Made by a program: the position numbers and the translations under genes | Assembly: GCA_038831005.1 (NCBI GenBank) | Contig: JAWBKZ010000007.1 | Coordinates: 1-53,521, forward strand | Reading direction: 5' to 3' | Length of the DNA stretch: 53,521 bases | DNA from: Ignisphaera sp. | GTDB taxonomy: Archaea; Thermoproteota; Thermoprotei_A; Sulfolobales; Ignisphaeraceae | Notes under the pieces: generated by a model | The model's database searches: none | What the model was told of the DNA's origin: nothing | What the model saw: the letters and a program-made list of their open reading frames with translations, nothing else | In this document: positions 8,406-12,579 of the stretch, piece after piece | Layout of the letters: each line of letters begins with the position of its first letter | How positions within the stretch are numbered: the stretch's first letter is position 1

Positions 8406-9686
8406 CTATTTAGTTGAAGCTCTATGTATCTTTATCGGTATAGTGTGTACTGAACATGAGATACATGGATCAAATGCTACAGCTATCTTCCTAGCCATCG
8501 ATACTGTTTCTTCATCATCTATCTTTCTTCCTCTAAGTCTTTCTGAAGCTATATCCTCCATTGCAGCTAGATTTTGAGCTGTAGGTGTAACTATATCGCA
8601 TGACTCTATTCTTCCGCCTTGGTCAATCCTATATCTGTGATAGAGAATACCTCTAGGGGCTTCTACAACAGCTTCACATTCACAAACATCCATAGATTCT
8701 CTATCTCTGTATCTCTCATTCTGTATATGGATATACCTATAATAGTTGTTGAAGAACTCTTCTAGATATAGTAATGCTTCATATGTTTCAGCAATACGTG
8801 CCACAAATCCCTGGAATATACTCTCTAAAGGTTGTCTCCATCCATATAGCTCAATAAACTCTCTAACTGTTTTCGACAGATAGCTATAGAACTGGTTAAA
8901 TCTAGCTATAGGTCCAACTATATAGCTTTCAATACCTTTTATCCTATAGTGTAGAGCGTTTGAGTATCTTTTCTGAATACCTATAGAGATATCTCTATAG
9001 AATTTGCTTACACTATAGATCGTTCCGTTAAGAGAGATATGGTCACCTGTATGTGGATACTCTTTACTGTATATAGATGCTACAGAAAGTTTATGCTGAT
9101 GCTTTGGAACAGTTCTTAAACTTAGACAAAATTCTGCAAACCTTGTGAAACTCTCTATAACTTCACTAGATTCTCTATAGAGTTTCTCTATATCATTTCT
9201 CTCTGGTGCTCTATAGATACCGCCAATCCTTATGTTCACGACGTTATGGGATCTTCCACCAAATATCTCCATAGCTTTTCTAGACCATGCTATAACTCTT
9301 AAAGCATCTTTAGCTATCTTTGGATTCCTATCGATGAACTCTATAGACGATCTTGTATGCACGAGGTCCGGTAGATTTAGATAGAATATATGTATCATGT
9401 GGCTCTTAACTCTTTCAGCTAGATGTAGAGCAACCCTAATTTTTTCAATTTCTTCATCTACATCTATGCCTAGACATTTTTCGAAAGCTTTTGATGCTGT
9501 ATATACATAAGAAACACCACATAATCCACATATTCTGCTAACAATATCGATAGCACTCCATATATCTCTACCTCTAACAATGTACTCGAAGAATCTAGGG
9601 CTTTCAGAAATTCTGTATACAATAGAATCAACACTACCTTCTCTATCGATAATCACTATCTCTCCCTCTCCTTCGACTCTAGTCAA
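8406..9686 (-). CDS. hydA: NiFe hydrogenase large (alpha) subunit, sulfhydrogenase type
   Basis: Catalytic subunit of a cytosolic NiFe hydrogenase. Near the N-terminus is TRVEGEGEI, then the first Ni-ligand motif RICGLCG with Cys53 and Cys56. Near the C-terminus is DPCISCSVH with Cys408 and Cys411. Twelve residues follow His414 and are presumably removed by a maturation protease, as in other NiFe enzymes. Length (426) fits the group 3b sulfhydrogenase family. The start is TTG eight bases after the delta-subunit stop, with AAAGGG as the ribosome binding site. Last gene of the hydBGDA operon. The enzyme would couple H2 with NADPH through the other subunits and may reduce polysulfide. Confidence 0.93.
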   Translation of the reverse strand: MTRVEGEGEIVIIDREGSVDSIVYRISESPRFFEYIVRGRDIWSAIDIVSRICGLCGVSYVYTASKAFEKCLGIDVDEEIEKIRVALHLAERVKSHMIHIFYLNLPDLVHTRSSIEFIDRNPKIAKDALRVIAWSRKAMEIFGGRSHNVVNIRIGGIYRAPERNDIEKLYRESSEVIESFTRFAEFCLSLRTVPKHQHKLSVASIYSKEYPHTGDHISLNGTIYSVSKFYRDISIGIQKRYSNALHYRIKGIESYIVGPIARFNQFYSYLSKTVREFIELYGWRQPLESIFQGFVARIAETYEALLYLEEFFNNYYRYIHIQNERYRDRESMDVCECEAVVEAPRGILYHRYRIDQGGRIESCDIVTPTAQNLAAMEDIASERLRGRKIDDEETVSMARKIAVAFDPCISCSVHTIPIKIHRASTK

Positions 9687-9694
9687 AACCCTTT

Positions 9695-10462
9695 CTATAC
9701 ATCACCACCTACGAGCTTTTTATACAACTTGAAGCTATATCCTTTAACTAATGTAGAGACGCTATCTCTATCCATACCTTTATCCAGCAACACCTTAATG
9801 AACTCACTAAAGTTGTGTTCATCTATATCGTAGCTCTTTATACCGTAACAGCCATAGCATCCACGGTTAAACAATGGACATAGAGCTCCACATCCATTAA
9901 CTGTCACAGGTCCTAAACAAGCTATACCTTTCGAAACCATTACACACGATATATTCCTTCTTTTACATTCACCACAAACACTCTCATATATATGTATAGG
10001 CAGACCACCTAAAGAGAACTTCTTAAGGAAAGACGTAACTGCATCACTATTTACAGGACATCCGGGGAGAAAGAAATCTATATGTATAACTTGATCCACA
10101 GGTTTCACATCACCATAGACATCTACTAGATGAGGTTCTGGATATACACACCTCTTAACCTCATCAATACTGCTTCCCGATCTAAGGCTCTGTATACCAC
10201 CCATTAATGCACATGTACCTAAAGCTACAACAATTCTTGCTTTCTTTCTCAAATCGATCAATAGTTTCTCTTGTTCTTCACTAGATATAGAGCCTTCTAC
10301 AAACAGTATATCTACTTCATCAATAGTCTCTCTATCTACAAGCTCTAGAAAGAAATCTATTCTGTATGTCTTGATCATATCGAGATCAGATGTTAAAGAG
10401 TATATGAGTTCATTTATACAGCCGGAACAAGAAGTTGCTTTAACTATAGCTATACCATACAT
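9695..10462 (-). CDS. hydD: Sulfhydrogenase delta subunit (NiFe hydrogenase small subunit)
   Basis: Iron-sulfur small subunit that carries electrons to and from the NiFe site. Cysteine motifs for the proximal cluster are visible in order: ATSCSGCINEL at residues 9-19, GTCALMGG near 82 and PGCPVNSD near 125. Further Cys groups (CGECKRRNISC and CLGPVTVNGCGALCPLFNRG) would bind the medial and distal clusters. There is no twin-arginine signal, so the enzyme is cytosolic. Length 255 is normal. It is separated from the gamma subunit by one base and from the alpha subunit by eight bases. Confidence 0.92.
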   Translation of the reverse strand: MYGIAIVKATSCSGCINELIYSLTSDLDMIKTYRIDFFLELVDRETIDEVDILFVEGSISSEEQEKLLIDLRKKARIVVALGTCALMGGIQSLRSGSSIDEVKRCVYPEPHLVDVYGDVKPVDQVIHIDFFLPGCPVNSDAVTSFLKKFSLGGLPIHIYESVCGECKRRNISCVMVSKGIACLGPVTVNGCGALCPLFNRGCYGCYGIKSYDIDEHNFSEFIKVLLDKGMDRDSVSTLVKGYSFKLYKKLVGGDV

Positions 10463-10463
10463 T

Positions 10464-11324
10464 CTATATCCCTTCTACCCATATGTAGTCCTCTATATCA
10501 CTATAGCTAAAGACAGGGCCGTTTCTACATATGAAGTAGTGACCAAATTGACATGTACCACAAACACCTACACCACACCTCATCCTTCTCTCTAGAGACA
10601 GAAAAACCATATCTTTTCGGAACCCTCTATCCAGAAGTTTTCTAATACTTGTTCTCATCATAACCTCGGGTCCACATATAAAGGCTATAGAGTTACTTAC
10701 ATCAATATCTATATAGTCTATCAGATCGGTAACAAATCCAACATGATGCCTCCAATCACTTGAATAAGTATCAACAGATAGCATAAGCTTTGTGTTCGGT
10801 ATAGATCTATAGGAATCTAGTTCATATTTGTAGAGGATATCTCTAGGAGATCTAGCACCAAACAGTATATTGATTCTACCGAATCTCTCTCTAAATTTCT
10901 CTAAATACTTTACAACAGGTCTTAGAGGAGCTACACCGATACCTCCGCCAATGATAACCAGATCCCTACCCTCTGCCTCATCCAAAGGCCATCCTCTCCC
11001 ATAAGGACCTCTAATCCCTACAATAGAACCTACACCAACTTTATATACAACAGCTTTCGTTATAGCTCCAACACTTTTGATAGTATGTTCAATAGCTATA
11101 GATCTACCTATAGATGTAGGGAGACTAGCTATAGATATCGGTACTTCTCCTAAACCATAAACATAGAGCATATTGAATTGACCTGGCAATGCATTATAGT
11201 CATTGTCGATCTTTAGGGTAAGCGTCTTTACATTAGGTGCTTCTTCAACTTCATTAACAACCATAGCTCTCTTAACTGTGAATATGTTTTGTTTCTCTAT
11301 ACCCTCTCTATCCATATTCAGCAA
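10464..11324 (-). CDS. hydG: Sulfhydrogenase gamma subunit, FAD/NAD(P)-binding reductase
   Basis: Ferredoxin-NADP reductase-like subunit. It has an FAD-binding barrel with PGQFNMLYV near 42-50, an NAD(P)-binding domain with IIGGGIGVAPLRPV near 125-138, and a C-terminal 2Fe-2S loop CGVGVCGTCQFG plus a later Cys. It passes electrons between NAD(P)H and the Fe-S subunits. The first possible start is TTG at 11324, inside the end of the beta gene; the ATG at 11315 has an AAAGG element nine bases before it and is the more likely start. The 17-base overlap with hydB shows tight operon organisation. Confidence 0.9.
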   Translation of the reverse strand: MLNMDREGIEKQNIFTVKRAMVVNEVEEAPNVKTLTLKIDNDYNALPGQFNMLYVYGLGEVPISIASLPTSIGRSIAIEHTIKSVGAITKAVVYKVGVGSIVGIRGPYGRGWPLDEAEGRDLVIIGGGIGVAPLRPVVKYLEKFRERFGRINILFGARSPRDILYKYELDSYRSIPNTKLMLSVDTYSSDWRHHVGFVTDLIDYIDIDVSNSIAFICGPEVMMRTSIRKLLDRGFRKDMVFLSLERRMRCGVGVCGTCQFGHYFICRNGPVFSYSDIEDYIWVEGI

Positions 11325-12393
11325 CCTTTCTAAGTGTATCCCTTATATCTATTCCTAGAGGACACCAAGTAACACATCTACCACATCCAACACATCCTAT
11401 ACTATTTATCTGCATAGGATAGAAAATGAATTTATGTAGTACAAAATGTCTATACCTTGTATAGAGGTGGATTCTAAAATGACCTCCAGCAACTTGGCCA
11501 TAGGTATACGTTAAACATCCAATCCATTTGGCTACTCTTTTGCTAAATCTTTCTGAAACTTGATCCTCTATCTCGATACAGAAACAAGTTGGACACACAT
11601 AGTTACAGTTTCCACATCCAATACACCTAGATGCTAATCTGCTCCATAGCTCTGTATCGCTTATAGATTTCTTTAGTTTTTCATTTACTTCGTTAATCCT
11701 GGGTATACGAGCTTCTGTAGACCTCCTAGCTTTTTCTATAAGTTCTCGATATATAGAGACGGTATCTTTATCAGCTTTCTCTAGATTAGCTCTATAGATA
11801 ATCTCTCTACCAGTATTGCTACCATACTTAAACAGAACAACATCTTCATCAAGTCTAGCATAAGCTATATCGAAACCTCGATGAACATCAGGACCTGCAT
11901 CAAGAGCACCACAGAAACATGTTTCTCCAGGCTCTAGACACTCTTCAACAACAATACACTCTATAGAGCTTCTTCTTCTAGTATAGATAGGATGTTTATT
12001 TAGACCTAGAATAGAGTCTAGAATCATGATAGACTTTAGATCGCAAGACTTAATACCAAACAATACAACTCTATCTACATCAACAACATCACTATCTATA
12101 GATTCATAGTTCGGTAATACAATTGAAATTACTTGTTCAGGTGGATGGAGATATATCTTTGGTGATAAAAAACTATGCCTAAATCTACCACCTCTAGATA
12201 GTCTATAGAAGCCTGGTTTCTGAATATCAGAAACATTTAGAGGGAGATCATCTACACCATTTATTTCACCCCAAACAATATCTCCATCAACACTTCTATA
12301 TCCAAAGACTCTAGCACCATTAACAACGTTTTTGATTATCTTAATGATGGTATCTAGATCTCTACATCTACCAACGAAAAATTCGCTAGAAAT
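11308..12393 (-). CDS. hydB: Sulfhydrogenase beta subunit (4Fe-4S protein), apparent ATT start
   Basis: Electron-transfer subunit with two 4Fe-4S motifs: CIGCGNCNYVCPTCFC and, near the C-terminus, CVGCGRCVTWCP. Counting only ATG, GTG and TTG starts, the frame would begin at a TTG at 12063, inside the conserved piece LFGIKSCDL. That would lose about 110 residues. The frame is open for 110 further codons upstream and encodes family-like sequence (FLSPKIYLHPPEQVISIV). No ATG, GTG or TTG occurs there before the stop at 12400-12402. An ATT at 12391-12393 lies six bases after a perfect GGTGA (12400-12404), giving 361 residues, the usual family length. Alternatively a one-base deletion near 12359 displaced a TTG start. 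First gene of the operon. Confidence 0.82.
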   Translation of the reverse strand: MSSEFFVGRCRDLDTIIKIIKNVVNGARVFGYRSVDGDIVWGEINGVDDLPLNVSDIQKPGFYRLSRGGRFRHSFLSPKIYLHPPEQVISIVLPNYESIDSDVVDVDRVVLFGIKSCDLKSIMILDSILGLNKHPIYTRRRSSIECIVVEECLEPGETCFCGALDAGPDVHRGFDIAYARLDEDVVLFKYGSNTGREIIYRANLEKADKDTVSIYRELIEKARRSTEARIPRINEVNEKLKKSISDTELWSRLASRCIGCGNCNYVCPTCFCIEIEDQVSERFSKRVAKWIGCLTYTYGQVAGGHFRIHLYTRYRHFVLHKFIFYPMQINSIGCVGCGRCVTWCPLGIDIRDTLRKVAEYG

Positions 12394-12579
12394 GATGTAT
12401 CACCATCTATAGCGCTAATGCTACTCTCCTAAAGTCTAGATGTAGACAGAATTCAGACTTAAAAGCTTGGATCCAGATGTAGTTGTATATCTAGATGTAT
12501 GGTTATCGACTATGATGCTTCTTGGCTAGAGCATTAGTGATAGAAGTCTTATTTTGTTTAATCTTTCTACTTTTTTCTG

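Follow-up and report, generated by a model that had tools for sequence, protein, structure and literature searches.

The hydB gene of an Ignisphaera genome, encoding the beta subunit of a group 3b-type hydrogenase, is most probably translated from an ATT codon (probability about 0.85), as a case of a genus-wide class of near-cognate start codons positioned by Shine-Dalgarno (SD) sequences. An ATT start had been proposed from the letters of the DNA alone, and it is now well supported by conservation of the frame, by the SD spacing and by recurrence of the arrangement in many genes of the genus. The stretch analysed (the window, 53,521 nucleotides) makes up the entire contig C7 of a genome (G000) that totals 1.70 Mb in 9 contigs.

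The hydB start region and its product

Read on the minus strand, hydB has an open frame from 12399 to its stop at 11308, bounded upstream by TGA at 12402-12400. From the proposed ATT (12393-12391) it encodes 361 amino acids (11308-12393), the strand reading TGA, TAC, ATC (12396-12394), ATT, then TCT AGC GAA TTT TTC GTT GGT. The SD sequence GGTGA (12404-12400, minus strand) is separated from the ATT by TACATC, and its duplex with the 3′ tail of the genome's own 16S rRNA (GGAUCACCUCCU) is put at -9.4 kcal/mol. Two features on which the sequence-only reading had relied, the spacing of exactly 6 nt from GGTGA to ATT and the lack of any ATG, GTG or TTG in the 110 codons before the first TTG, are both there in the minus-strand sequence. 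That TTG, at 12063, has no SD (duplex -3.0 kcal/mol). The spacing and the near-cognate character of ATT 12391-12393 are common to other genes of the genome, and the in-frame ATC 3 nt upstream is a possible alternative start codon. Overlapping the SD is an out-of-frame ATG (12404-12406, minus strand) that opens six codons, ATG GTG ATA CAT CAT TTC TAG. Its register differs from that of hydB by one nt, and it lacks an SD of its own, with a duplex of only -2.2 kcal/mol.

The protein matches Pfam PF17179 (Fer4_22) above the cut-off, with E = 4.9e-28, and the sulfhydrogenase beta families ShyB/HydB with E = 2.6e-41 and 2.3e-34. Against the NCBIfam equivalog models NF040829 and NF040833 its scores, 141.7 and 118.9 bits, are below the cut-offs of 690 and 750, and as judged from these profiles HydB is related to both named sulfhydrogenase beta equivalogs and a member of neither. 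A search of viral and genome contigs for a close relative gave a sole match, 53% identical, from an Ignisphaera MAG.

Recurrence of the arrangement in Ignisphaera

Three independently sequenced Ignisphaera genomes were used to assess how general the pattern is, the regions covered being roughly half of the G000 sequence, 1.2 Mb from I. aggregans and 400 kb from G006. One test was free of homology. It took each GGTGA followed, at a set in-frame spacing, by an open reading frame of at least 80 codons that was not covered by a longer one and whose first 10 codons contained no canonical start. Of the frames at spacing 6, 18 opened with a near-cognate codon and 3 with some other codon; at the control spacings (0, 3, 9, 12, 15 and 18) the split was 16 to 95 (Fisher p = 2.8e-10 against spacing 6). 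By genome the spacing-6 ratios were 7:2 for G000, in which the combination of GGTGA, 6 nt, near-cognate codon and long frame is strongly non-random, 7:0 for I. aggregans and 4:1 for G006. Since canonical starts at the same spacing number 28, 30 and 24 respectively, near-cognate codons would make up roughly a fifth of the starts set by a strong SD.

The other test ignored the SD, and conserved genes in the three genomes were checked for a canonical start close to the expected position. One was present in 619 genes and absent in 30 open reading frames. Seventeen of the 30 have an in-frame near-cognate codon (CTG, ATA, ATT, ATC or ACG) at GGTG spacing, exactly +6 in nearly all; the remaining 13 have no GGTG pattern and, by eye, mostly look like alignment overruns or antisense frames. 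Examples in G000 are a type-4 uracil-DNA glycosylase with a putative start at ACG (family match), a Trm112-like protein with one at CTG (family match below cut-off) and an LSm-like protein, so named by eye, also with one at CTG. In I. aggregans they include PurQ (CTG) and the initiation factor aIF1A (ATA), both with family matches, and in G006 aMBF1 (CTG) and an NcsA/TtuA-like protein (ATA; below cut-off). From sequence considerations it is very likely that hydB is one member of this class.

A second member is probably to be found in the same operon, whose order, hydB-hydG-hydD-hydA, is present and intact apart from the question of starts. The two middle genes, for the FAD/NAD(P)-binding subunit (hydG, 10464-11324, minus strand) and the small-subunit-like Oxidored_q6 protein (hydD, 9695-10462, minus strand), have a canonical start and an ATG start respectively. 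The alpha subunit gene hydA (8406-9698, minus strand; 430 amino acids, with family matches) has a frame that opens at 9701 with CIERVLTRVEGEG and contains no canonical codon until TTG 9686, a possible alternative start. Its proposed start is ATA at 9698-9696 (IERVLTRVEGEG), which lies 6 nt after the SD sequence AGGTGG (9705-9710, minus strand; duplex with the 16S tail -12.9 kcal/mol). Relatives of the protein begin M(K/E)xVLTRVEGEG, the ATG of the G006 gene aligns with ATA 9698-9696, and the arrangement AGGTGG-N6-ATA recurs at position 1162964 of I. aggregans.

Sequencing error, a later start and frameshifting

An indel in the assembly, though unlikely, is the alternative that fares best. Were one T of CATTTC (12391-12389) surplus, ATG 12406 would come into the hydB frame (MVIHHSSEFFVGR); for hydA the corresponding error would be an extra G or T in AAAGGGTTTT, giving MYRK(V/G)LTRVEG. 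Lending it some appeal, a short homopolymer in each gene adjoins an out-of-frame ATG that is off register by one nt, and the relative in G010 reads ASSSELFVG. However, a comparison of G000 with I. aggregans covering about half of G000 was free of internal frameshifts across 359 orthologs and 103,199 aligned residues. With G006 a single frameshift candidate among 118 emerged (C4 55588), by eye a spurious antisense frame. Further, the ATG that an indel would bring into use is the one lacking an SD, whereas GGTGA-N6-ATT fits the genome-wide pattern. The same class of conserved genes without canonical start is moreover present in I. aggregans, a finished genome with a reported error rate of less than 1 per 100,000 bases (PMC3035270).

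That hydB is made only from TTG 12063, as a protein of 251 amino acids, or that the gene is decaying, is very improbable. This TTG is indeed the first canonical codon in the frame, but the 110 codons that it would discard are conserved. In seven relatives the alignment with HydB begins at residue 2-14; identity is 34-45% across residues 1-110 and 44-63% elsewhere. The three closest align from residue 2-6, with 42-45% and 58-63% identity respectively, and that of G010 is identical at 7 of 10 positions over residues 2-11. Alignment of the N-terminus in close relatives, advocated when the ATT start was first suggested, thus carries the conserved frame to within 2-6 residues of the ATT, and by this conservation the upstream 110 codons are shown to be real coding sequence, as had been supposed. 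The absence of an SD before TTG 12063 and the intactness of the rest of the operon also argue against a late start or decay. A point counting against the ATT reading itself is that the nearest homologs, 54-57% identical, start at ATG, GTG or TTG, and in hydB relatives one of these codons lies a few codons before a conserved [LF][FY]VG motif.

The same alignments bear on a missing base near 12359, which the sequence-only reading had offered as its other explanation and which would have translation really begin in the same frame at TTG (12374). The string TTG GTA GAT GTA GAG does exist, but relatives are continuous in the present frame and align on both sides of 12359 (FFVGRCRDLD in HydB, LFVGNFRDLE in G010). 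Since they share the hydB frame there, an extra base would break conserved sequence, and the ortholog comparison, with its lack of internal frameshifts, also speaks against one. The suggestion was not borne out; we accord it a negligible likelihood. Programmed +1 frameshifting from the short ATG frame (12406), which stops at TAG 12388-12386 within the hydB start in an arrangement similar to that of hydA, is just as implausible, inspection revealing no recognisable slippery codon and the single-codon ATA, CTG and ATT cases in other genes being left unexplained.

Two loci on other contigs of G000 also stand out. At C2:206276 (plus strand) a TATA-binding protein look-alike, 81% identical to its I. 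aggregans counterpart, has 56 codons of aligned frame without ATG, GTG or TTG and with no clear GGTGA. At C1:15581 (plus strand) a metallophosphoesterase-like start runs on in frame into a pyrimidine-dimer glycosylase-like protein (both names by eye), as a result of gene fusion or of an assembly join.

Initiation components, aIF1A and parallels elsewhere

For the SD-positioned class, hydB included, the proposed mechanism is that pairing of the 16S tail with GGUGAU would bring the codon that lies 6 nt downstream into the ribosomal P site, and the ordinary initiator tRNA, with its CAU anticodon, may there accept a codon one base off AUG. A strong and correctly spaced SD would in this way let AUA, AUU, AUC, CUG or ACG serve as start. 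Initiation at such codons in Ignisphaera genes is expected to occur in vivo, judging by their sequences, and the weak start codon presumably lowers or tunes output. The 16S tail of G000 reads GGATCACCTCCT, and aIF1 is encoded in all 11 Ignisphaera genomes, with an ATG start in each. Loss of aIF1 as a cause was rejected given its presence in the 11 genomes. Altered initiator tRNA was considered because G000 lacks the GGGCTCATAACCC motif; yet the gene (L207 1501-1594) is there, its anticodon loop interrupted by an intron not present in the ten other Ignisphaera genomes, and the rest of it matches the genus. With no obvious peculiarity in 16S tail, aIF1 or initiator tRNA, placement by a strong SD is the simplest account. 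Counted against the ATT reading is that aIF1 reportedly disfavours non-AUG initiation complexes in S. solfataricus (work cited in PMC6237735).

Archaeal GUG and UUG starts, which account for about 37% of the 619 supported canonical starts, resemble the proposed class in being non-AUG initiation by ordinary initiator tRNA, though AUA, AUU, CUG and ACG fall outside the ATG/GTG/TTG set. Near-cognate initiation in eukaryotes, at CUG, ACG and others, uses the same one-base variants, and there is a likeness to the control of stringency by eIF1 in that choice of the start codon involves e/aIF1 and aIF1A (PMC6237735); the difference is that the Ignisphaera codons would be placed by an SD at 6 nt and not by long-range scanning. 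In the literature searched for AUU, AUA, near-cognate and non-canonical archaeal starts, the coverage being incomplete, no description of such a class was found. From a practical perspective, gene finders limited to ATG, GTG and TTG would truncate or miss genes with near-cognate starts. For hydB 110 codons would go, and aIF1A, PurQ, aMBF1, type-4 uracil-DNA glycosylase and the LSm protein are at similar risk. The class is also a natural set of genes with which to address how an archaeal ribosome having aIF1 and normal initiator tRNA accepts near-cognate codons.

The factor aIF1A, which acts with aIF1 in start-codon selection (PMC6237735), is itself pertinent. Of 18 Ignisphaeraceae genomes, 17 have an apparent AUA start for its gene, preceded at 4-7 nt by GGTG(A); they are all 11 Ignisphaera and 6 of 7 others, the exception (G012) having ATG (loci include L158, L160, L162, L163, L165, L170, L171, L174, L175 and L213). 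An in-frame canonical codon is present upstream in G001 and G014-G017, making the AUA start less certain in those genomes. Three genomes that belong to another family, G023, G042 and G052, have CUG as the apparent start with GGTGA 7 nt upstream, and in the latter two no canonical codon precedes it. Most other families have TTG, GTG or ATG.

Bacterial infC, encoding IF3, has an AUU start codon and is autoregulated. The Ignisphaera cases are like it in the use of a one-base variant of AUG after an SD and, for the Ignisphaeraceae aIF1A AUA, in residing in an initiation-factor gene and in being conserved within the lineage. They are unlike it in being archaeal, in that AUA, AUU, AUC, CUG and ACG are spread over many ordinary metabolic genes, and in that autoregulation of aIF1A is something we infer. 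By this analogy the conserved AUA may constitute an autoregulatory loop of the infC type, to which we give slightly less than an even chance. The broader proposition is held just as tentatively, at a shade under evens. By it, Ignisphaera would routinely initiate at AUA, AUU, AUC, CUG and ACG 6 nt after a strong SD, and the aIF1A AUA in Ignisphaeraceae (CUG in the other family) would be a feedback loop of a start-selection factor, convergent with bacterial infC. The conserved AUA makes autoregulation of an archaeal initiation factor directly testable.

Two more features of initiation genes were noted in the genus. The initiator tRNA genes of G007 and G008, which lack the anticodon-loop intron, carry an insertion in the T loop, and most Ignisphaera genomes share, immediately ahead of the aIF1 ATG, a conserved TGGGCATGCAA-like string with an ATG that is out of frame (L136-L146).
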